Source of the DNA: Acidobacteriaceae bacterium
Lineage (GTDB): Bacteria; Acidobacteriota; Terriglobia; Terriglobales; Acidobacteriaceae
DNA: 64,000 bases
Direction of reading: 5' to 3'
Assembly: GCA_003131585.1 (NCBI GenBank)
Contig: PKVW01000074.1
Span: forward strand, 62,001-126,000
Below the pieces are notes generated by a model. It saw only the letters and a list, made by a program, of their open reading frames with translations. It was not told the DNA's origin and did not search any database. How positions within the stretch are numbered: the first letter of the stretch is position 1; each line of letters begins with the position of its first letter. A program made the position numbers and the translations under genes. Below, in pieces: positions 13,376 to 30,613 of this stretch.

Positions 13376-13545
13376 GCGGGCACTCCACCATTTCCAATTG
13401 AGTGGATAGGAGCCTTGCTAAAGCCGCCTCACCGGCTTTCGGCATTTTTGCGATAGGATAAGTCCAGGGAATAAAAAAGACGCGAGCGCCGCTGGCTTTG
13501 CCCAACACTCCGTTGCCGGCAGGGCAGGGCGAAGGATCTGATCCC

Positions 13546-15117
13546 ATGGCATTGCATACTGAAAACCCCACATCGCAATACATGAATTACGCGCCGGCGG
13601 ATTTGAATCCGCATCAGGATCTCCCCAAGGGATTTTTTGATTTCCTGTTGCCGCTTCACAAACGATTCACCCCCTGGCAACAGAAGCTGGTTGCGAAACG
13701 CGCGGAGGTGTTGCAGTTGTCGCATCGCGGGCAGCCGCCAAACTATTTGCCCGCCTCGGAGGCAACTACTTCCGGCTGGCGGATCGAAGTGCCCGATTGG
13801 TGCGCGGATCAGCGCAACCAGATGACCGGCCCGGCCGACGACGCCGAGTTGACGGTAAAATTATTGAACTCCGGCTCTCCCGCCGTCATGCTCGACCTGG
13901 AAGATTCCACAGCGAACACTTGGGAGAACATCATGTTGGCGATCAAAAACACCATCGCCGCCTACCGGTATGATCTCAGCTACGACGACAAGAAGCGGCA
14001 AAAAAAAGTCACGGTGCAGCGCTCGAAAACCGTGACTTGGGTGCGTCCCCGCGGGTTGCACGTCAGCCAGAGCGGAGTGATCAAGGACGAGATCATGTCC
14101 GCTTCCCTGTTCGATCTAGCCCTGATCTGGTACCAGATCGATCCGGCTCGGTTGCCGCACAACTTCTCCGTGTATATCCCGAAGAGCGAATCGGCGGAGG
14201 AGGCCTTGTGGTGGCGCGATCTCTTCCAGGCTTTCGCCAAACACAAAGGCTTGCCTCAGGACTACATCAAATGCATGGCGCTGGTCGAGGCGCACCCGCT
14301 GGCATATCAGATGGAAGAATTTCTTTTCAATCTTCGCGGCCACTGCCTCGGATTGAACCTCGGCCGCTGGGATTACATGGCCTCGCTGATCCATTTCATG
14401 CTCGGGGATCCCAATTGGATTTTGCCGGACCGCAACACCATCCCGCACGATGTAGCGTTCTTCCAGAACTTCCGCACCCTGATGCCCGAGATTTGCCACA
14501 AGCACGGAGCTCACGCGATTGGCGGAATGACCGCTCTTTTTCCCAGCCGCACCGACGCGGAATTGAACGAGCGCGCCATGCAAGTTCTCAAGCAAGACAA
14601 GAAGAACGAAGCCGACTGCTTGATGGATGGAGCGTGGACCGGCCATCCTGACCAAAACGAAATCGCAGTCGCCCAATTCCCCTATCCCAATCAGATTGCA
14701 AAACGGCCCAAGCTGCCGGATTCGCATCCCGATCTGCGGCCAATCCCGAAAGGCGTTGGCGCAACCACTCTTGCCGGAACACGAGCGGCCGTGCGCACCG
14801 TGATTCGCTATCGCAACGGCGTGCTCAACGGCAAAGGCGCCAGCCTGCTCGATGGCTACATGGAAGATCTGGCCACCGACCGCATCTACCGCTTGATGAT
14901 TACGCAGCGCGTGCGCCATAAAGTGAAAGTAGCCGGCGACGACGGCAAGCCGATCGAACACTCTCCCGCTTTGGTGACCCGTTTGTTCGACGAAGAACTG
15001 ACCAAGCTTCAGCAGAACCCGCCAGCAGAAATCGATCAGAAAGCAGCAGCGACACTCCCCGAAGCGCGCCGCATCGCGGAGGAGATGATTGTGCAAGGCC
15101 ACCACTCGCCGATCTAG
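13546..15117 (+). CDS. aceB: Malate synthase A
   Basis: 523 residues from ATG 13546 (GAAGGA upstream), the usual size for malate synthase A. Condenses glyoxylate with acetyl-CoA to malate in the glyoxylate shunt. Conserved blocks include VPDWCADQRNQMTGPADDAE, VMLDLEDSTANTWEN, the catalytic-arginine region WVRPRGLHVSQ, GRWDYMASLIH, and the C-terminal ALVTRLFDEEL. Isocitrate lyase is not adjacent in this window. Together with the oxalate/glyoxylate genes at 20734-30613 it offers a sink for glyoxylate, although it is 5.6 kb away and not in the same operon. Confidence 0.95.
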   Translation: MALHTENPTSQYMNYAPADLNPHQDLPKGFFDFLLPLHKRFTPWQQKLVAKRAEVLQLSHRGQPPNYLPASEATTSGWRIEVPDWCADQRNQMTGPADDAELTVKLLNSGSPAVMLDLEDSTANTWENIMLAIKNTIAAYRYDLSYDDKKRQKKVTVQRSKTVTWVRPRGLHVSQSGVIKDEIMSASLFDLALIWYQIDPARLPHNFSVYIPKSESAEEALWWRDLFQAFAKHKGLPQDYIKCMALVEAHPLAYQMEEFLFNLRGHCLGLNLGRWDYMASLIHFMLGDPNWILPDRNTIPHDVAFFQNFRTLMPEICHKHGAHAIGGMTALFPSRTDAELNERAMQVLKQDKKNEADCLMDGAWTGHPDQNEIAVAQFPYPNQIAKRPKLPDSHPDLRPIPKGVGATTLAGTRAAVRTVIRYRNGVLNGKGASLLDGYMEDLATDRIYRLMITQRVRHKVKVAGDDGKPIEHSPALVTRLFDEELTKLQQNPPAEIDQKAAATLPEARRIAEEMIVQGHHSPI

Positions 15118-15910: not shown

Positions 15911-16849
15911 TTATGAAGAGGGCTTGCGAGACATCGTCTCGCTTGCCCTCTCCAGCATCGCGGCGAAAATCAGGTTCCCGGAATCGCGCCGGTTATAGCG
16001 GAAAGAGTACTCGTCAAGGTAGCTCTGCAAGTACTTCGCGCTGACCGAGTGGTACACGCCGCCGATCCCGCGTTTCACTAGACTCCAGAATCCCTCAATC
16101 GTGTTCGTGTGGACTTCACCCGCCACGTAGACCTTCGCGCTGTGATTGATGCGGCGGTGCTGATACCCCATGCCCTGCAACCGGGGCAGCGCGTTGTAGG
16201 TGGCCGCATCGTCCGTGTAGATCATGGTTTCAGGGAGCACGTATTCCTTCACAAGTGCACTCGTTGCGGCTATCGTCAATTCTGGGCTGACTTGTGCCAC
16301 GATGCGGCCCTTGCGCTCCACGATTCCCATCACGGTTGTCTTGTTGCCGCGATCCACGCCGAGCAGTCGCCCCGATCCGCCCTTGCGCCGTCCGCCGTGA
16401 TACATCTCGTCCATTTCGACTCCCGGAGTGCCAGCGCCGCCGAGCCGCAAATCTTCGCTCATCAGTTTCCGAATCTGGTGGAACATGCGCCACGCCGTCT
16501 TGTAGGTGACGCCCGTCTCCCGCTGAATCTGCTTCGCGGAAATTCCGCACCGCGTGGAACCCATCAAGTACATGGCGTAAAACCAGAGCCGCAATGAGGT
16601 GCTGGTTTTCTCGAAAATCGTTCCGGCCAGAGGGAAGATGTGATTCCCGCACGTCTCGCAAGCGTAAGCGGTGCGGCCCTTCACCCGGTAGTGCTTTCGC
16701 GGTTTCTCGCACTTGTGGCAGATGGCCACGCCGCCCGGAAAGCGCTGCTCTTTGATCTGCTCCAAGCAGGCGTCGTTATCCGGGAATCGGCTGTGAAAGT
16801 TTTCGACGGTGTAGCGGAGTTCTTTAGGGATTGTCTGTCGGCGGTTCAT
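15911..16849 (-). CDS. IS1595 family (ISXO2-like) transposase
   Basis: 312 residues. The N-terminus has the zinc-ribbon of IS1595 transposases (CHKCEKPRKHYRVKGR then YACETCG). The DDE-type core follows: GVEMDEMYHGGRRKGG with the first acidic residue, MIYTDDAATYNAL with the second, and HTNTIEGFWSLVKRGIGG with the third. The length and motifs match intact members of the family, and I see no frameshift. It lies within 16-bp inverted repeats and a target duplication, so it is likely the functional transposase of that element. Confidence 0.96.
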   Translation of the reverse strand: MNRRQTIPKELRYTVENFHSRFPDNDACLEQIKEQRFPGGVAICHKCEKPRKHYRVKGRTAYACETCGNHIFPLAGTIFEKTSTSLRLWFYAMYLMGSTRCGISAKQIQRETGVTYKTAWRMFHQIRKLMSEDLRLGGAGTPGVEMDEMYHGGRRKGGSGRLLGVDRGNKTTVMGIVERKGRIVAQVSPELTIAATSALVKEYVLPETMIYTDDAATYNALPRLQGMGYQHRRINHSAKVYVAGEVHTNTIEGFWSLVKRGIGGVYHSVSAKYLQSYLDEYSFRYNRRDSGNLIFAAMLERASETMSRKPSS

Positions 16850-20712: not shown

Positions 20713-20733
20713 TTGGAAACAGAAACGAGGACT

Positions 20734-21894
20734 ATGAGCGCCATCGAACAGCCGCAGCCGGCCGCACTGCAATTCCCTGCCCTCGAACCGCCCCGCCGCT
20801 ATCTTTTCGGGCCCGGACCCAGCATGGTTCACCCGCGCGTTTACGGGGCGCTGGCGAAGCCGATCGTCGGGCACCTCGATCCGTACTTCATCCAGGTGAT
20901 GACAGACGTTCAGCAATTGCTCAAAACCGCTTTCGGAACCAACGACGGCGCGACGCTGGTGATTTCCGGCACCGGCAGCGCGGGCATGGAAGCTGCCGTC
21001 GCTAACTTCGTGGAACCAGGAGCCAAGATCGCTGTGTTCGCAAACGGATATTTCTCCGATCGGCTGACGGAGATGGCGAAGCGCCAAGGCGCCAACGTCG
21101 TCCGCTTTGAGAAGGCATGGGGTGAGACTTACACGGAGGATGAAGCCAGAGAGTTCATCCGCCGCGAGAAGCCCAAGGTGGTGGCTTATGTTCATGCCGA
21201 GACCTCGACCGGAGCGTTGCAGGCTGGCCAGGCGATTTGTGCCGCCGCTCACGATGCCGGCGCTCTGGTCATCGCGGATTGCGTCACCTCGCTCGGCGGA
21301 GTGCCGGTAGCTTTCGACCAGACCGGCATCGACGTCGCCTACAGTTGCACGCAAAAAGGGCTGAGCTGCCCGCCGGGCTTATCTCCGATGGAGATGTCGC
21401 CGAGGGCAATGGACTTTCTGCGTGCCCGCACTTCTCCTTCGCGCAGTTGGTATCTCGACCTCAAGCTGATTCACGACTACTCCACGGTGTCGCACCGCTA
21501 TCACCACACTGCGCCAATTTCCATGTTCTACGCCTTACGCGAGGCGCTGCTGGTCATCGCCGAGGAAGGAATCGAGAATCGCTGGGAGCGGCATCGCCGT
21601 TGCCACAGATCTTTTGTCAAGGGCGTAGAAGCGCTGGGCCTGCGCATGCATGTCCCCGAAGACCATCGAATTGCGATCCTGAACACCGTGTGTGTGCCCG
21701 AAGGTATTGATGAGGCTAAAGTGCGCAAACGCCTCTTGGATGAATCCGACATTGAAATCGCCGGCGGTTTCGGGCCGCTCGCGGGCAAAGTCTTCCGCAT
21801 TGGCATGATGGGCCCGCTGGCCACCGAAGATAACGTGCAGTTTTTTCTGAAGGAGTTTAAAAAGGCCCTGAATGCCGAGGGCTACTCGAACTAA
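20734..21894 (+). CDS. Class V PLP aminotransferase, alanine/serine-glyoxylate type
   Basis: 386 residues from ATG 20734, preceded by ACGAGG. Class V fold type I motifs: LFGPGPSMVHPRVYGAL at the start, ISGTGSAGMEAAVAN, YVHAETSTGALQ, VIADCVTSLGG with the PLP aspartate, and YSCTQKGLSCPPGL with the PLP lysine. These match alanine-glyoxylate / serine-glyoxylate aminotransferases, which convert glyoxylate to glycine. It is 224 bases upstream of the CoA-ligase/reductase pair. If those make glyoxylate from oxalate, this enzyme would assimilate it. Related class V enzymes use purine-derived (S)-ureidoglycine, so the substrate remains an inference. Confidence 0.88.
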   Translation: MSAIEQPQPAALQFPALEPPRRYLFGPGPSMVHPRVYGALAKPIVGHLDPYFIQVMTDVQQLLKTAFGTNDGATLVISGTGSAGMEAAVANFVEPGAKIAVFANGYFSDRLTEMAKRQGANVVRFEKAWGETYTEDEAREFIRREKPKVVAYVHAETSTGALQAGQAICAAAHDAGALVIADCVTSLGGVPVAFDQTGIDVAYSCTQKGLSCPPGLSPMEMSPRAMDFLRARTSPSRSWYLDLKLIHDYSTVSHRYHHTAPISMFYALREALLVIAEEGIENRWERHRRCHRSFVKGVEALGLRMHVPEDHRIAILNTVCVPEGIDEAKVRKRLLDESDIEIAGGFGPLAGKVFRIGMMGPLATEDNVQFFLKEFKKALNAEGYSN

Positions 21895-22118: not shown

Positions 22119-23633
<1,515 letters not shown>

Positions 23634-23639
23634 CCAAAG

Positions 23640-24623
23640 ATGAGATTTCTGATCGCCGGGGCGGGCGCAATCGGAGCCTACATTGGGGCCCGCATGGCGC
23701 AGGCCGGCTTCGATGTCACGCTCTTCGCGCGCGGGCCGCACCTTCGCGCCATGCAGGAGCGCGGCGTGCAGGTGAAAAGCGTCGATGGAGATTTCGTGGC
23801 GCGTCCCACCATCGCCGGTTCCCTCGAAGAAGCGGGGCCGATGGATGTCGTCTTTCTTGGCGTGAAGGCGCACGGCTTGCCGCAACTCGCGCCTCAGTTG
23901 AGCCCGGCGCTGGGACCGGACACGACAGTGGTCAGCACGCAGAATGGAATTCCGTGGTGGTACTTCGAGGGTTTTGGCGGTGATTGGGAAGGAATGCGTC
24001 TGGAGCGCGTCGATCCCGGCGGCGTGATTTCCTCGGCCATCGAAGCCCGTCGAGTAGTGGGGTCCATCGTTTACTTTTCGACCGAGATTTCCTCGCCGGG
24101 CGTGATTCACCACATCGAGGGGAATCGCATTTCTCTCGGCGAACCGGACGGCTCGCGCTCCGATCGCTGCCGCCGCATTGCCGAGGCGCTCATCGCCTCC
24201 GGCTTGCGCTGCCCGATTACCGCTCGCATCCGGCACGAGATTTGGGTAAAGATTCTGGGCAACGCGTCTCTCAACCCGGTGAGCGCGCTGACGCGCGCCA
24301 CGCTGGCTCAGATGGTGCGCGATCCGGGAGTTTCTTCGGTGATTCGAAACATCATGCAGGAAGTGGAAGCGGTCTCCCGCAGGTTGGGCATGGAGTTGCC
24401 TGTTTCCATCGATCAGCGCATGGCAGGCGCGGAAAAGGTTGGGGAGCACAAGACCTCAATGCTGCAAGATCTCGAAGCGGGCCGGCCGATGGAGTTGGAA
24501 GCGCTGGTGGGCGCGGTCGTGGAGTTGGGCGAGCGGGTGGGGCTTCCCATGACCTGTACCCGCACGGTATACAACTGCACTAAACTGCTGGCCCAATGTG
24601 CCGCTCAGCCGCAGCCAAAGTGA
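23640..24623 (+). CDS. PanE/ketopantoate-reductase family oxidoreductase, candidate oxalyl-CoA reductase
   Basis: 327 residues. The N-terminal Rossmann motif is GAGAIGAYIG (7-16), with RG at 31-32 probably contacting NADP. ApbA/PanE signatures include LGVKAHG, STQNGIPWW and the C-terminal domain block EIWVKILGNASLNPVSALT, whose K204, N208 and N212 match the catalytic Lys/Asn region of ketopantoate reductases. Classical annotation would be 2-dehydropantoate 2-reductase. Known biology: in Methylobacterium extorquens the PanE2 paralogue is an oxalyl-CoA reductase making glyoxylate. Here the gene is coupled to an oxalate-CoA-ligase-like gene, so the same role is plausible. No pantothenate genes are nearby. 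Confidence 0.8.
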   Translation: MRFLIAGAGAIGAYIGARMAQAGFDVTLFARGPHLRAMQERGVQVKSVDGDFVARPTIAGSLEEAGPMDVVFLGVKAHGLPQLAPQLSPALGPDTTVVSTQNGIPWWYFEGFGGDWEGMRLERVDPGGVISSAIEARRVVGSIVYFSTEISSPGVIHHIEGNRISLGEPDGSRSDRCRRIAEALIASGLRCPITARIRHEIWVKILGNASLNPVSALTRATLAQMVRDPGVSSVIRNIMQEVEAVSRRLGMELPVSIDQRMAGAEKVGEHKTSMLQDLEAGRPMELEALVGAVVELGERVGLPMTCTRTVYNCTKLLAQCAAQPQPK

Positions 24624-24831
24624 GTCTGGCAGCAAGAGGACTTTGGTCAAGCAGCTCACCGCTTCTCTCCCAATTCGCGCCCTCGGCTTCCGGCTGACTA
24701 TCTTCTTCATCGGACGATCTTCAGCGGAGCTCCGGCGGCGGGTTCCAGGGGCGGCGTTCCAGGTTCCAGGCCGCTCTCGATTGAGTGCCGGTACGCTTCC
24801 ATCGGTTTTTTCATCCACCCAATAAAAATAT

Positions 24832-24861
24832 TTGCCGGGGGCTTGACAACGGGCGTATACT
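24832..24861 (+). promoter_or_regulatory. Candidate promoter of the regulator/oxidoreductase operon
   Basis: TTGCCG at 24832-24837 and TATACT at 24856-24861 with an 18-base spacer, 47 bases before the TTG start at 24908. An alternative TTGACA at 24843 is too close to this -10. The palindrome at 24874-24892 lies where transcription would begin. Confidence 0.45.
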
Positions 24862-24873
24862 CCCCTCGTTGTC

Positions 24874-24892
24874 TGGTCCACTTATCGGACCA
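24874..24892 (+). promoter_or_regulatory. Palindromic operator candidate for the FadR-type regulator
   Basis: Perfect inverted repeat TGGTCC-N7-GGACCA, 12 bases after the -10 box and 15 bases before the regulator start. FadR/PdhR/LldR-type regulators bind TGGTC-containing palindromes, and this placement suggests autoregulation. A half site (tctggtc) also occurs near 29172 upstream of the transporter gene. Confidence 0.6.
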
Positions 24893-24907
24893 CTTGGAGA
24901 GTTCACC

Positions 24908-25615
24908 TTGCCCACCGCCATCAAGTCCGACTTCGAGGTTGTCCGCAGGAATAAGGTCTACGAAGAAGTCGCCAAGCAGATCGAACGTCTGATTCTGAAG
25001 AAACTGAAACCCGGCGACAAACTGCCCTCGGAACGCGAACTGGCGGAACTGCTTCGAGTCAGCCGCAGTTCCATCCGGGACGCGATTCGAGGCCTGGAAC
25101 TGATGGGCTTGGTGGAACCGCGGCAAGGCGCCGGGACAATCGTTCGCGAAATCTCGCCCGACTCGTTGGTCAATCCTTTTGCCCATGCCCTGAAGCGCCG
25201 GCAGGAACTGGTCAGCGAGCTTCTGGATTTTCGCAGGATGCTGGAACCGCCGCTGGCAGCCCGCGCCGCCACGCACGCTTCTCCCGACGAAATTTCCGAG
25301 ATGGAAGAGATTCTGCAGCGGCAAGAGAAAAAGCAGGCTCAGGGGGACGCATCTGTCGGTGAAGACACCGAATTCCATTACAGTATTGCTCTGGCTTCCG
25401 ACAACAGTGTCGTCCTGAAAGTGCTGGACATTCTCATGGACCTGCTGCGCGACACACGCGAACGCTCCTTGCAGGTGGAAGGGCGCCCGCAAAAGTCGCT
25501 CGCCGGCCACCGGCGGATCCTGAGCGCCATTCGGCGCCACGATGCCGAAGCGGCAAAGGACGCGATGCGGCGGCACATTGAAGACGTCGAAGAGATCGTA
25601 CTGAACAAGTTTTGA
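24908..25615 (+). CDS. FadR-subfamily GntR transcriptional regulator
   Basis: 235 residues from TTG 24908, chosen because GGAG precedes it and longer versions would cross the promoter and operator. Residues about 15-82 form a GntR winged helix: VYEEVAKQIERLILKKLKPG, LPSERELAELLRVSRSSIRD and LVEPRQGAGTIV. Residues 100-225 form an FCD ligand-binding domain (LDFRRMLEPPLAARAA, EFHYSIALASDN, GHRRILSAIRRHDAEAA) with the acidic/histidine residues that bind a metal and small carboxylic acids in this family. It is 18 bases upstream of the oxidoreductase genes. It probably senses a dicarboxylic or 2-oxo acid, and oxalate or glyoxylate is the natural guess. Confidence 0.9.
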   Translation: MPTAIKSDFEVVRRNKVYEEVAKQIERLILKKLKPGDKLPSERELAELLRVSRSSIRDAIRGLELMGLVEPRQGAGTIVREISPDSLVNPFAHALKRRQELVSELLDFRRMLEPPLAARAATHASPDEISEMEEILQRQEKKQAQGDASVGEDTEFHYSIALASDNSVVLKVLDILMDLLRDTRERSLQVEGRPQKSLAGHRRILSAIRRHDAEAAKDAMRRHIEDVEEIVLNKF

Positions 25616-26842: not shown

Positions 26843-28075
26843 ATGGCAGTGGCCACAGTAATCGAAGAACAGAAACACAACATTGAGGAAACCGCACTAA
26901 TCACCGGCAGCGAAGCCATCGCAGTGGCTTGCAAGCTGGCGGACGTTGACGTCATCACCGCTTACCCGATCCGTCCCTACGACACCGTCATGCAGTACGT
27001 CTGCAAACTGGTGGCCAACGGTGAAATGGACTGCGAGTATATCGTCGCGGAAGGCGAACACTCGCAGTTTGAAATCGTGAAGCACGCTTCCGCCTGCGGA
27101 GCGCGCGTGTTTTGCGGCTCCAGCGGCGTCGGCTGGATGTATGCCATGGAAGCGCTGACCGTCACTCCCGCGTTGCGCATTCCCATGATCGCCATGGTCG
27201 GAAACCGGGCGTTGGACGATCCTGGCGCCTTCGGCGTGGAGCACAACGACGCGCTGGCAGTCCGCGACTTGGGCTGGCAGTTGGTTTGGGTCGACAATGT
27301 GCAAGAGGCGCTGGACACAGCCCTCATTGCTTATCGAGTGGCGGAGGACCGGCGCATCTTCCTGCCCTGCGCAATCAGTTGCGATGGCGCGTTTCTGACT
27401 CACTCGCAGGCCATGGTCAAAATCCCCTCGCAAGAGAAGGTGAACGAATTCCTGCCGCCCTACGACCGCGGGGACCTGCTGCTGCATCCCGATAATCCCA
27501 TTACCGTGGCGCCTCAGGGCAATGAAGACTGGGTCATGGAAATTCGCCGCCAGAACTACGCGGCGATGGAGCGGGCTTATGGCGTGATCAAGGAAGCCTA
27601 CGCGGATTTCGAGCGCATCTTTGGCCGCTCCTATGGCAATCCGTTCTTCGAAGAGTACATGACCGACGATGCGGATATCGTTCTGCTGGGAATGGGGACG
27701 CTGTCGATCTCGGTGAAAGTAGCGATCCGCCAGATGCGCAAGGAAGGAAAGCGAGTGGGTTTTGTGCGCATGCGCTGGTTCCGGCCGTTTGCAGCCGAGG
27801 AATTGGCGAAGTCGCTGCAACGCTTTGCGGCGATTGGGGTCATCGATCGCGACTACTCTTTCGGCTCGCCCTATCTTGGAGGCGTATTGGCCGGCGAGGT
27901 TCGCCACGCGCTGTATCCCGGACCCGGCAAGAAGCCCCCGGTGGTCGATTTTATTTGCGGTCTCGGCGGGCGCGAAGTCACCGTGCCCGATGTGCAGAAG
28001 ATGGCCGAGTCCGTCTACAAAGCTGCGGATGGCAAAGCGCAGCCCTTAACTCAATGGATCGGATTGCGAGAGTAA
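26843..28075 (+). CDS. 2-oxoacid:ferredoxin oxidoreductase alpha subunit with oxalate-type active site
   Basis: 410 residues. The N-terminal domain I is the PFOR alpha type: TGSEAIAVACKLADVDVITA followed by YPIRPYD at residues 41-47, where pyruvate enzymes have YPITP plus serines. Arg44 replaces the substrate-binding Thr. A second arginine, R122 in MVGNRALDDPG, lies 78 residues on. From memory, Moorella oxalate oxidoreductase uses Arg31 and Arg109 of alpha, the same spacing. Domain II is seen in YMTDDADIVLLGMGTLSISV and RMRWFRPF. The gene is 36 bases after the gamma-delta gene and 46 before beta. The subunit would help bind oxalate over the TPP of the beta chain. Confidence 0.88.
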   Translation: MAVATVIEEQKHNIEETALITGSEAIAVACKLADVDVITAYPIRPYDTVMQYVCKLVANGEMDCEYIVAEGEHSQFEIVKHASACGARVFCGSSGVGWMYAMEALTVTPALRIPMIAMVGNRALDDPGAFGVEHNDALAVRDLGWQLVWVDNVQEALDTALIAYRVAEDRRIFLPCAISCDGAFLTHSQAMVKIPSQEKVNEFLPPYDRGDLLLHPDNPITVAPQGNEDWVMEIRRQNYAAMERAYGVIKEAYADFERIFGRSYGNPFFEEYMTDDADIVLLGMGTLSISVKVAIRQMRKEGKRVGFVRMRWFRPFAAEELAKSLQRFAAIGVIDRDYSFGSPYLGGVLAGEVRHALYPGPGKKPPVVDFICGLGGREVTVPDVQKMAESVYKAADGKAQPLTQWIGLRE

Positions 28076-28121: not shown

Positions 28122-29147
28122 ATGGATACCTACGTACAGATCGATCCGACCCAGAAATTAGACCCCTTCAAGGCCGTTAAGAAGATCCCCTTGGAGGAAT
28201 ATTTTACTTCCGGGCACCGCACCTGCCAGGGCTGCGAGTCGGCGCTGGTGATGAAGATGATGGCCAAGGCCGCCGGCCCCAGAACCATCGTGCTGGGCAG
28301 CACCGGATGCATGTATGTGGCGAACACCACGTATTACAGCACTTCATGGGTGCTTCCCTGGATGCACACCCAACTGGGGAGCAGCGGATCGGCGGCTCTG
28401 GGCACCGCCGCGGCGCTGAAAGCGCTGATGCGCAAAGGAAAAATGAAGCAGGAGCCTATCAATGTGATAGCATTCTGCGGCGATGGCGGTGGGGCAGATA
28501 TGGGTGTGGGAGCGATCTCGGCAACCCTGACTCATCCCGATTACAACTGCCTCATCCTGATGTATGACAACGAGTCCTACGCGAATACCGATATTCAGTT
28601 ATCGGGCAGCACCCCGTGGGGCGCCAACACCACGTTCAGTTCGCCGGGCAAGGTGAAAAGGATTATGCATCGCCGCTGGAAAAAGAATATGGCGGGCATG
28701 ATGGCGGCCGGTCATCCCACGTGCCGGTATGTTTCCACCGTTTGCATGTCCTACGGCTTGGCGGCCATGAATTCCATGCGCAAGGCGCTGGCGATTGGCG
28801 GTCCCACGTTCATCCACTCTCTCGATCCCTGTCCCAAAGGCTGGGACTACGATCCCTATATCTCGCACGAACTGGGCGAGTTGGCGGTGAATACAGGAAT
28901 TTGGCCGCTCTACGAGGTGGAAGACGGCGTGCTGAGGCTGACCGGCAGGACGCAGCAAATCGCCGCCAAGAAAATCCAGCGGCAGCCGGTACGAGATTAC
29001 TTATTAAAGCAAGGAAGATTCGCGCACTTTACCAACGATGATATCGATTACTTTCAAAGTAAGATCGATGAGATGTGGGAAAAGTGGCTGGTTCCCGGTG
29101 TGATCCCGTTCCGGACAGAAGTGGAGGCCGACGCCCCGCCCGCGTAG
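28122..29147 (+). CDS. 2-oxoacid:ferredoxin oxidoreductase beta subunit (TPP-binding)
   Basis: 341 residues. TPP-binding motif: CGDGGGADMGVGAIS (119-133) followed by ILMYDNESYANTDIQLSG. Four cysteines expected to hold the proximal [4Fe-4S] cluster are present: C35 and C38 in HRTCQGCES, C63 in GSTGCMYVA and C237 in LDPCPKGW. The chain binds TPP, decarboxylates the 2-oxo acid and passes electrons toward the gamma-delta chain. It is the third gene of the oxidoreductase set. The sequence alone does not prove oxalate use; that rests on the alpha motif and the transporter next door. Confidence 0.9.
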   Translation: MDTYVQIDPTQKLDPFKAVKKIPLEEYFTSGHRTCQGCESALVMKMMAKAAGPRTIVLGSTGCMYVANTTYYSTSWVLPWMHTQLGSSGSAALGTAAALKALMRKGKMKQEPINVIAFCGDGGGADMGVGAISATLTHPDYNCLILMYDNESYANTDIQLSGSTPWGANTTFSSPGKVKRIMHRRWKKNMAGMMAAGHPTCRYVSTVCMSYGLAAMNSMRKALAIGGPTFIHSLDPCPKGWDYDPYISHELGELAVNTGIWPLYEVEDGVLRLTGRTQQIAAKKIQRQPVRDYLLKQGRFAHFTNDDIDYFQSKIDEMWEKWLVPGVIPFRTEVEADAPPA

Positions 29148-29272: not shown

Positions 29273-30613
29273 ATGGCCGAATCCGCAACCCCTCTTATTC
29301 ACCCATCGCGCATACCCAACCGCTGGATCCAGTTGGTGGCCGGCATCGTTGCCATGATGGCCATCGCCAATCTGCAGTATGCCTGGACCCTCTTCGCCAA
29401 GCCGCTGCAGGCCCACATGCACGTCACATTAACGGCCATCCAGTGGACTTTCGCCTTGTTCATCGCTCTTGAAACGTGGCTCGTCCCCTTCGAGGGATAT
29501 CTGGTCGATCGCATTGGTCCACGGTTCATGTTAGGGGTGGGTGCGATTATGGTCGGTCTTGGGTGGATCGGGGCCGGCCACGCCGAAACCCTGCACAGCC
29601 TCTACTTTTGGTACGGGCTGGGCGGCATCGGTGCCGGTATTGTCTATGGTGGCATCATTGGCAATGCCTTGAAATGGTTTCCTGACCACCGCGGGCTATG
29701 TGTCGGCCTGTGTGCGGGAGCCTACGGAATCGGAACCGCGCTCACTGTGGCGCCTATTGCCTCGATGATCAAAGCTTCCGGCTACCAGCACACCTTCATC
29801 TTCTGGGGCTTTATCCAGGGCTTCGTGGTGCTGGCGAGCGCGCTTTTCCTGGCCAGGCCTCCAGTTGGCTGGGTTCCGGCGGGCTGGGAAAAGAAAGAAG
29901 CGCAGATTAAGCTCCACGTAAACAGTTCTAGCGTCGATATGACGCCGGGCCAGATGGTGCGCACGGGCTCATTTTGGGTGATCTACGGGATGATGACGCT
30001 GGTGGCCTTTGGCGGCTTGGTAGTGACGGCGCAACTCGGCCCCATGGCGGTTTCCTACAAAGTAGATAAAATCGTTGTGGCCTTCGGCATGACTGCGCTG
30101 GTGTTGGCGCTCGAGGTGGACCGCGTGCTGAACGGACTGACACGGCCTTTCTGGGGCTGGGTATCCGATCACATCGGGCGCGAGAACACCATGGCGATCG
30201 CCTTCACTTGCGAAGCACTGGCGGTGCTTGCTCTGCTGCAACTGATCAGCCACCCGATTTGGTTCATCCTGTTGTCCGGTTTGTGCTTCTTTGCCTGGGG
30301 TGAGATTTTCTCCCTGTTCCCTTCCATCACCGGCGACGTGTTCGGAAGGAAATGGGCCACCACAAACTACGGCATCGTCTATACCGCCAAAGGCGTAGCC
30401 TCCATCTTCGCCGCGCCAGGCGCTGCCTGGCTATTCGCCAGAACGGGATCTTGGACCAAAGTCTTCTGGGCGATGATTGCCTGCGACCTGATCGCCGCGA
30501 TCTTGGCATTCTTCTGGCTGAAGCCTCTGGCGGCACGCACGGTCCAGGAATCCAACACTGGGCTGCGCGCCGTGAACATAAATGCGCCGGTAAAGGCGCG
30601 TGGTGTGGCGTAA
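29273..30613 (+). CDS. MFS oxalate/formate antiporter family transporter (OxlT-like)
   Basis: 446 residues with about 12 hydrophobic helices; AGGAGG precedes the start. The N-terminus PNRWIQLVAGIVAMMAIANL then QYAWTLFAKPLQ parallels Oxalobacter OxlT (GNRW ... QYSWTLYANPV). The family blocks YFWYGLGGIGAGIVYGG and KWFPDHRGL are present. Two charged residues stand out inside helices: R291 in LTRPFWGWVSD and K373 in VYTAKGVAS. From memory, OxlT binds oxalate with Arg272 (helix 8) and Lys355 (helix 11), a spacing of 83 against 82 here. It is 125 bases after the beta-subunit gene and ends the locus. Likely role: oxalate import, perhaps in exchange for formate or another anion. Confidence 0.87.
   Translation: MAESATPLIHPSRIPNRWIQLVAGIVAMMAIANLQYAWTLFAKPLQAHMHVTLTAIQWTFALFIALETWLVPFEGYLVDRIGPRFMLGVGAIMVGLGWIGAGHAETLHSLYFWYGLGGIGAGIVYGGIIGNALKWFPDHRGLCVGLCAGAYGIGTALTVAPIASMIKASGYQHTFIFWGFIQGFVVLASALFLARPPVGWVPAGWEKKEAQIKLHVNSSSVDMTPGQMVRTGSFWVIYGMMTLVAFGGLVVTAQLGPMAVSYKVDKIVVAFGMTALVLALEVDRVLNGLTRPFWGWVSDHIGRENTMAIAFTCEALAVLALLQLISHPIWFILLSGLCFFAWGEIFSLFPSITGDVFGRKWATTNYGIVYTAKGVASIFAAPGAAWLFARTGSWTKVFWAMIACDLIAAILAFFWLKPLAARTVQESNTGLRAVNINAPVKARGVA

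Follow-up and report, generated by a model that had tools for sequence, protein, structure and literature searches.

The oxalyl-CoA route of Methylobacterium employs frc, oxc, and panE2. The oxalate oxidoreductase (OOR) of Moorella thermoacetica (MtOOR; PDB 5c4i, 5exd, and 5exe) is built from alpha, beta, and fused gamma-delta chains. In the accessible portions of PMC5020499, YPIRP is called a motif unique to MtOOR, and Arg31 and Asp116 are given roles in its bait-and-switch mechanism. The accessible part of another source (PMC12654022) assigns OOR to certain anaerobic bacteria and also reports an OOR from Blautia in which the Arg31 and Asp116 positions are substituted; OOR is treated in PMC12188714 as well, a text available in part. 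A survey of oxalate degradation in the gut omitted OOR in the sections available (PMC8062136), and an environmental survey, likewise available in part, tracked oxc, frc, oxdC, and oxlT (PMC10192776). Among open-licence full texts, those joining oxalate oxidoreductase with soil and aerobic were a Moorella review and a reference entry only, both available in part; none was found that joins oxalate oxidoreductase with Acidobacteri, which is not proof of absence in print.

The DNA analysed here (the window) is a stretch of 64,000 nucleotides from an Acidobacteriaceae bacterium. It carries the genes oorD, oorA, and oorB in that order, with intergenic gaps of 36 and 46 bp, within a series of genes that also encodes an aminotransferase, a CoA ligase, a PanE-type enzyme, a GntR regulator, and an OxlT-type antiporter, all on one strand (Table 1). 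It is highly probable, from sequence comparison, that the locus encodes a TPP- and iron-sulphur-containing oxalate:ferredoxin oxidoreductase belonging to a second clade of OOR and placed in an operon for the use of oxalate. The observations beneath this reading are of four kinds: sequence, predicted fold, phylogeny, and gene context.

Table 1. Coordinates of the oor genes, their motifs, and neighbouring genes in the window
Feature	Position	Strand	Basis
Malate synthase family protein	13498..15117	+	Pfam malate synthase TIM barrel over cut-off
Class V aminotransferase, alanine/serine-glyoxylate type	20713..21894	+	PDB search, Pfam Aminotran_5
AMP-forming CoA ligase, oxalyl-CoA synthetase-like	22119..23633	+	PDB search
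PanE-type reductase, candidate oxalyl-CoA reductase	23640..24623	+	NF005089 417 bits, cut-off 223
GntR/FCD regulator	24785..25615	+	Pfam GntR and FCD
oorD, fused gamma-delta subunit, 390 aa	25634..26806	+	MtOOR delta best PDB sequence
oorA, alpha subunit, 410 aa	26843..28075	+	phmmer, model, tree
YPIRPYD, oorA residues 41-47	26963..26983	+	R44 = MtOOR Arg31
Switch loop R122-A-L-D-D-P-G-A-F130 of oorA	27206..27232	+	Alignment with MtOOR
oorB, beta subunit, TPP and cluster motifs	28122..29147	+	MtOOR beta best PDB sequence
OxlT-type oxalate/formate MFS antiporter	29273..30613	+	TIGR04259 481 bits, cut-off 335

Each of the three chains has an MtOOR chain as its best match in the PDB: the alpha chain at 335 bits (phmmer; next, the PFOR of M. 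acetivorans at 212), the beta chain at 277 bits (next, a PFOR at 198), and OorD at 76 bits against 41 for the next sequence. That gamma and delta are fused while alpha and beta are separate chains, as described in an earlier sequence-only reading of this DNA, is confirmed by the ORFs and by these matches. The window enzyme has the chain composition of MtOOR and its YPIRP motif in common, and equivalents are present for Arg109, Asp112, beta Asn143, and the cysteine ligands of the three 4Fe-4S clusters; the two alpha chains are about 43% identical.

The oorA gene starts with ATG, with GGAG upstream. The sequence-only reading had located YPIRPYD at alpha residues 41-47, with R44 in the place of the substrate-binding Thr of pyruvate-type enzymes, and had paired R44 with R122, 78 residues later in GNRALDDPG, as the counterparts of MtOOR Arg31 and Arg109. 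The motif is where it was said to be (a degenerate DNA pattern for it has a single hit in the window and none in 100 shuffles), and the phmmer alignment, with the numbering checked, sets R44 on Arg31 and R122 (codon cgg, 27206-27208) on Arg109. An alignment of 47 alpha rows (29 window-type or intermediate, 5 Moorella-type, and 13 pyruvate-type) has Arg at position 44 in 34 of 34 oxalate-type rows and Thr in 13 of 13 pyruvate-type rows; related loci were fetched with the patterns FG[VTS]EH[NT]DA and AYPIRPY[DT][TEA], so that the conservation of R44 among fetched loci is partly built in by the second. Position 122 is Arg in all 47 rows, the 13 pyruvate-type ones included, and the spacing of 78 recurs in 46 of the 47 (12 of the 13 pyruvate-type). 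Because both occur in pyruvate-type enzymes, R122 and the spacing were dropped as evidence for oxalate; in these alignments R44 is the diagnostic arginine, and the other two marks, being superfamily-wide, carry no weight. The alignment with MtOOR and PFOR that the sequence-only reading had proposed as a check on itself upholds R44, which separates the groups, and not R122 or the spacing. A further 15 alpha positions, among them Y46, Q75, D125, G128, F130, and G131, are common to both oxalate-type groups and present in at most 1 of the 13 pyruvate-type rows, which with R44 makes 16 separating positions in all.

In OorB, residues C35, C38, C63, C237, and N155 are invariant (18 rows); N155 corresponds to MtOOR beta Asn143, an Asn found in PFOR too. 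OorD has two 4Fe-4S motifs (residues 281-291 and 311-321), whose eight cysteines are invariant in 21 rows. Its C-terminal extension begins at about residue 338: MtOOR delta stops at the equivalent of OorD 337, leaving the window's chain about 53 residues longer. The extension is largely conserved among the readable rows of the relatives listed, and the string GQY within it occurs in 68 of 76 readable rows (2 of 78 were left out, their second cluster motif or end not being read); it does not occur in L040 and L041, which belong to the intermediate branch. MtOOR gamma Glu154, listed as a catalytic residue in the accessible part of PMC12654022, falls outside the aligned stretches of the OorD-MtOOR comparison. 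A Foldseek search with the OorD model returned MtOOR delta in its first eight rows, at modest TM; the model is of medium confidence (pLDDT 74.1, pTM 0.59), so the extension has no firm fold.

The AlphaFold model of the alpha chain (pLDDT 83.8, pTM 0.87) superposes on 5c4i_A with TM 0.90/0.93 and Z 53.8. M. acetivorans PFOR follows at Z 52.4, too close for the predicted fold to serve as arbiter between OOR and PFOR, and it was rejected in that role. This small difference of 1.4 is part of what could be said for an ordinary ferredoxin oxidoreductase of pyruvate or branched-chain 2-oxoacids whose motif carries a substitution by chance. PFOR (PDB 9bt4, 6cin, and 1b0p) belongs to the same superfamily, shares the fold and the TPP and cluster arrangement, and likewise has the Arg at 122, the Asn at N155, and the 78-residue spacing. 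It has Thr at position 44, however, differs from the window's alpha chain at the 15 further positions, and forms a separate group in the tree; R44 is present in 34/34 oxalate-type and 0/13 pyruvate-type rows, and 0/18 loci around pyruvate-type genes have an operon content such as that of the window. The tree, the Arg in place of the YPITP Thr, and the separating positions led us to reject PFOR identity, which we regard as extremely improbable.

For the IQ-TREE phylogeny 47 alpha rows were used: the window type contributes 27 (of 81), the intermediate type 2 (L009 and L011), the Moorella type 5, and the pyruvate type 13 (12 of 18 loci and one typed PFOR); L010 was left out of the tree and of all alignments. 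The 34 YPIRP rows are split from the 13 pyruvate-type rows with support of 100/100, on a tree for which the program warns of some long branches that join among the pyruvate-type rows. Within the YPIRP rows, the Moorella type (5 rows including MtOOR; 100/99) is sister to the window-type and intermediate rows together (29 rows; 100/99), and the split between these last two is weaker (90/80). The OOR equivalogs of NCBIfam (NF045790, NF045791, and NF045792) are the best match for each chain, all below cut-off (bits/cut-off, in that order: delta 94/230, alpha 378/500, and beta 329/590), a result that was counted against the oxalate reading. If the clade does oxidise oxalate, its members may go on escaping a name, since the chains of the window score below the cut-offs of the naming models. 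Plain membership in the MtOOR type was rejected, as Asp116 is absent and the scores lie under the curated cut-offs. Judged by how it would work, the enzyme is very probably an oxalate:ferredoxin oxidoreductase; as to membership, the comparisons place it in a sister clade that is without one published mechanistic residue and below the curated cut-offs of the known OOR family.

A scan of contigs gave at least 592 pattern matches, at least 354 of them encoding a relative, and the best 80 (67-94% identical) were kept. These 80 of at least 354 come from Acidobacteria (many of them Candidatus Sulfotelmatobacter), Rokuibacteriota, Methylomirabilota, Chloroflexi, Myxococcales, Deltaproteobacteria, Armatimonadetes, Gammaproteobacteria, Rhodospirillaceae, and others; the closest among the relatives listed are from an 'Acidobacteria bacterium' (L048, 94%) and a Candidatus Sulfotelmatobacter (L049, 93%). 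In the window's phylum, 56 of 297 genomes contain a match at E <= 1e-60, and the 30 loci fetched from it divide into 12 with YPIRP (the window included) and 18 with YPITP or FPITP. The phylogeny and this distribution suggest that the window enzyme very probably represents a second, so far unnamed OOR clade, sister to the Moorella type and present in Acidobacteriota, Rokubacteria, Methylomirabilota, Chloroflexota, and others. Two genomes (G073 and G121) have two window-type oorA copies each, with identities to that of the window of about 86 and 75%, and every copy is accompanied by oorDB, GntR, and OxlT.

The switch loop sets the clade apart from MtOOR. The sequence DRTLDPPGDFG of MtOOR is replaced by NRALDDPGAFG, with A129 in place of Asp116 and D126 in place of Pro113. 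The lack of Asp116 was overlooked in the sequence-only reading. R122, D125, D126, and A129 are found in 81/81 rows (the window and the best 80 of at least 354 relatives), at positions outside the fetching patterns, and the intermediate rows L009 and L011 have the loop of the window. The alignment suggests that the acidic switch residue has moved three positions earlier, from the Asp116 position to Asp126. Variation at Asp116 has been noted elsewhere, since the Blautia OOR is substituted there (accessible part of PMC12654022). In the alpha model, pLDDT falls below 50 in two segments, residues 123-136 and the 12 at the start; the former may reflect a mobile loop, and the absence of the beta chain from the model may also account for it.

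Ala129 at the Asp116 position was counted against the oxalate reading. The loop change (DDPGA for DPPGD), constant in the 81 rows just described, could mean that specificity has shifted, with a different small acid of the pathway (glyoxylate or mesoxalate, for instance) as the main substrate, leaving oxalate to the ligase or to a separate OOR. An Arg in place of Thr nevertheless suits a substrate with a second carboxylate, and D125 is kept; together with the operon comparison given below, this makes another main substrate quite unlikely.

The neighbouring genes are consistent with oxalate as the substrate. The four best PDB sequences for the ligase are oxalate-CoA ligases or oxalyl-CoA synthetase (422, 421, 387, and 294 bits; next 254); its best NCBIfam model, the FadD7 family, is not reached (443 against a cut-off of 650), and the protein seems, from these matches, to be oxalate-CoA-ligase-like. 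The antiporter has OxlT (8hpj) as its best PDB sequence (223 bits, against 139 for a lactate transporter), and its R291 and K373 fall on R272 and K355 of OxlT, which bind substrate there. The aminotransferase is closest in the PDB to the alanine-glyoxylate aminotransferase 1vjo (369 bits; next 264), reaches no NCBIfam equivalog cut-off, and would convert glyoxylate to glycine. The PanE-type gene begins 6 bp past the ligase gene. By family and context its product is a candidate oxalyl-CoA reductase, and we set it beside PanE2 by description: panE2 serves as oxalyl-CoA reductase after oxalyl-CoA synthetase, according to the accessible text of PMC12686821.

Further genes lie around this group. 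The malate synthase family gene, 5.6 kb upstream, scores 321 against a cut-off of 594.5 for TIGR01344; its product is a possible user of glyoxylate and is not claimed as a member of the operon. A gene for a GTP-type PEPCK is located just downstream of the operon on the opposite strand. Upstream of the operon there is also an IS1595/ISXO2-type transposase (15911-16849, minus strand; Pfam PF12762 over cut-off).

Gene context was surveyed (tblastn, 1e-25) in the best 80 of the at least 354 related loci, many of them cut by contig ends, and in 18 control loci around pyruvate-type genes from the window's phylum; antisense ORFs muddled the gene calls in some high-GC loci, and chosen ORFs only were annotated. 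A GntR gene is near 62 of the 80 and OxlT or TctA near 52 (OxlT 28, TctA 24, none with both), against 0/18 controls in each case. PanE (4/80), ligase (3/80), and frc (2/80) matches are again at 0/18 in controls, and their rarity near the related loci was counted against the oxalate reading. The frc matches near OOR are full length in L121 (712/504 bits) and partial in L120; in G277, of the intermediate branch, an frc over cut-off (621/504) lies about 12 kb from OOR, and the frc genes over cut-off in L121 and G277 were counted in favour of oxalate. A ligase match at E <= 1e-100 was found in 5 of 12 whole genomes. From these counts, GntR, oorDAB, and a transporter form the common core, and the full operon of the window belongs to part of the acidobacterial branch. 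The aminotransferase (1/80 against 1/18) and a GltD-like protein (2/80 against 3/18) were uninformative as markers of context.

Several observations from the survey stand apart. A TctABC-type tripartite transporter replaces OxlT in L099, L117, and 22 more of the best 80 of at least 354 relatives, mostly from Rokubacteria and Methylomirabilota. Pyruvate phosphate dikinase is present in 14 of these 80 loci. At L121:1578-4723 and G277:C9:284050-286959 an frc gene over cut-off adjoins that of a TPP enzyme, near the OOR genes; the TPP enzyme scores 217-229 bits against the oxc model (cut-off 739) and is possibly a 2-hydroxyacyl-CoA lyase-like partner of frc.

Many of the related loci listed consist of GntR, oorDAB, and a transporter with neither ligase nor PanE nearby, an arrangement that would also suit detoxification or pH balancing, in which OOR and OxlT clear oxalate and no growth on it follows. 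The window, L050, and L038 (G265) have ligase and PanE inside the operon, however, and in the window the malate synthase family gene and PEPCK are close by, so we hold clearance alone to be unlikely for this locus. The question concerns purpose and not chemistry, and either answer is compatible with an enzyme acting on oxalate.

The operon recurs around two kinds of OOR. In L050 all eight genes are present in the order of the window, and G265 (L038) has ligase, PanE, GntR, oorDAB, and OxlT. In G084, from the window's genus, ligase, PanE, GntR, and OxlT are 87, 84, 76, and 74% identical to those of the window, whereas identity drops to 43% in the alpha and 42% in the beta chain; this OOR passes the NCBIfam cut-off with its alpha chain (590/500) and stays below it with beta (443/590) and gamma (174/230). 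L051 (Sulfotelmatobacter) has a ligase gene cut by the contig end, PanE, GntR, and a window-type oorD-oorA-oorB set, followed in tandem by a Moorella-type oorC, a GltD-like protein, oorA, and oorB; the beginning of this tandem is also seen in L056. The Moorella-type OORs of G084 and L051 thus share the operon with the window, in the same genus or near it, while differing from the window enzyme in sequence (42-44% identity in alpha and beta) and in their delta part, which is divided between a gamma protein and a GltD-like flavoprotein that holds the cluster domain. The simplest history would be an ancestral tandem, from which lineages then lost one OOR set or the other.

We regard this swap and tandem with a Moorella-type OOR as the best evidence for a role of the window enzyme in using oxalate; divided tasks are also conceivable. 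The tandem of L051 could mean a division of labour in which the window-type enzyme handles another acid, and the 24 of the 80 loci (best 80 of at least 354) with TctABC in place of OxlT could be read the same way. The window operon, however, has only the window-type OOR and that of G084 only the Moorella type, in an operon otherwise alike. The identification as an oxalate-type oxidoreductase, first made from the motif, is thus supported by MtOOR as the best PDB match of three chains, R44, the tree, the operon, and the swap and tandem, and it very probably holds on these comparisons.

The Moorella-type loci have features of their own. In the Moorella-type OORs at L042:8157-12974 (G084) and L051:6361-11156, a GltD-like FAD/NAD(P) protein of 610 aa carries the cluster domain, and this kind of OOR is possibly an NAD(P)-coupled oxalate oxidoreductase. 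In G084 a gene for a CDC48-like AAA ATPase of 753 aa (L042:13008-15269; TIGR01243 763 against 802.65) is located between GntR and oorC.

The window's genome is 96% complete in 75 contigs, so that 4% may be missing. Four matches to haem-copper oxidase subunit I exceed the cut-off, two of them full length and two partial, and no match to CODH was found in the 96% recovered; with terminal oxidases and without CODH the genome differs from that of Moorella, and the organism looks, from its genes, like an oxygen-respiring one rather than an acetogen. Again within the 96%, no frc match was found, oxc reaches 35.6 bits against a cut-off of 739.4, and glyoxylate carboligase (gcl) 32 bits against 711; an frc/oxc route in this genome was rejected. 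The lack of an frc match also puts the counter-ion of the OxlT-type antiporter in question. Among 11 related genomes the oxc cut-off is passed by none and that of frc by one (G277). OOR is an oxygen-sensitive class of enzyme. The PFOR of Desulfovibrio africanus ends in a domain VII that contains a disulphide, and work on disulphide-dependent protection from oxidative stress is cited in the accessible part of PMC8945911; the OorD tail is unrelated to that domain as far as tested. We would speculate that the tail shields the clusters from oxygen.

For substrate, electron acceptor, and carbon flow we infer the following scheme. OxlT would import oxalate, and R44 and R122 would hold its carboxylates next to TPP, where the alpha and beta chains meet. 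The adduct formed with TPP would release one CO2 and then a second, with no need for CoA, and the two electrons would pass from the beta cluster through the two OorD clusters to ferredoxin. A second share of the oxalate would be converted to oxalyl-CoA by the CoA ligase and reduced to glyoxylate by the PanE-type enzyme, to be aminated to glycine. OOR would in this way provide reducing power and oxalyl-CoA the carbon, replacing formyl-CoA transferase and oxalyl-CoA decarboxylase. The proposed reduction of oxalyl-CoA to glyoxylate by a PanE-type enzyme is that of Methylobacterium; unlike there, activation would depend on an ATP-dependent ligase and energy would come from OOR, in a genome with no frc match.

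Whether this extends to the whole clade is, in our estimate, an even question: an OOR with a rewired loop and a shielding OorD tail would allow oxygen-respiring uncultivated bacteria of many phyla to live on oxalate without formyl-CoA, with the ferredoxin enzyme for energy and the ATP-dependent oxalyl-CoA route for carbon in one operon. As the acidic switch residue seems to be relocated, the clade offers a natural variant for probing the bait-and-switch mechanism. If the reading is true, the turnover of oxalate by Acidobacteriota, Rokubacteria, Methylomirabilota, and Chloroflexota of soil and groundwater would have been under-counted so far.
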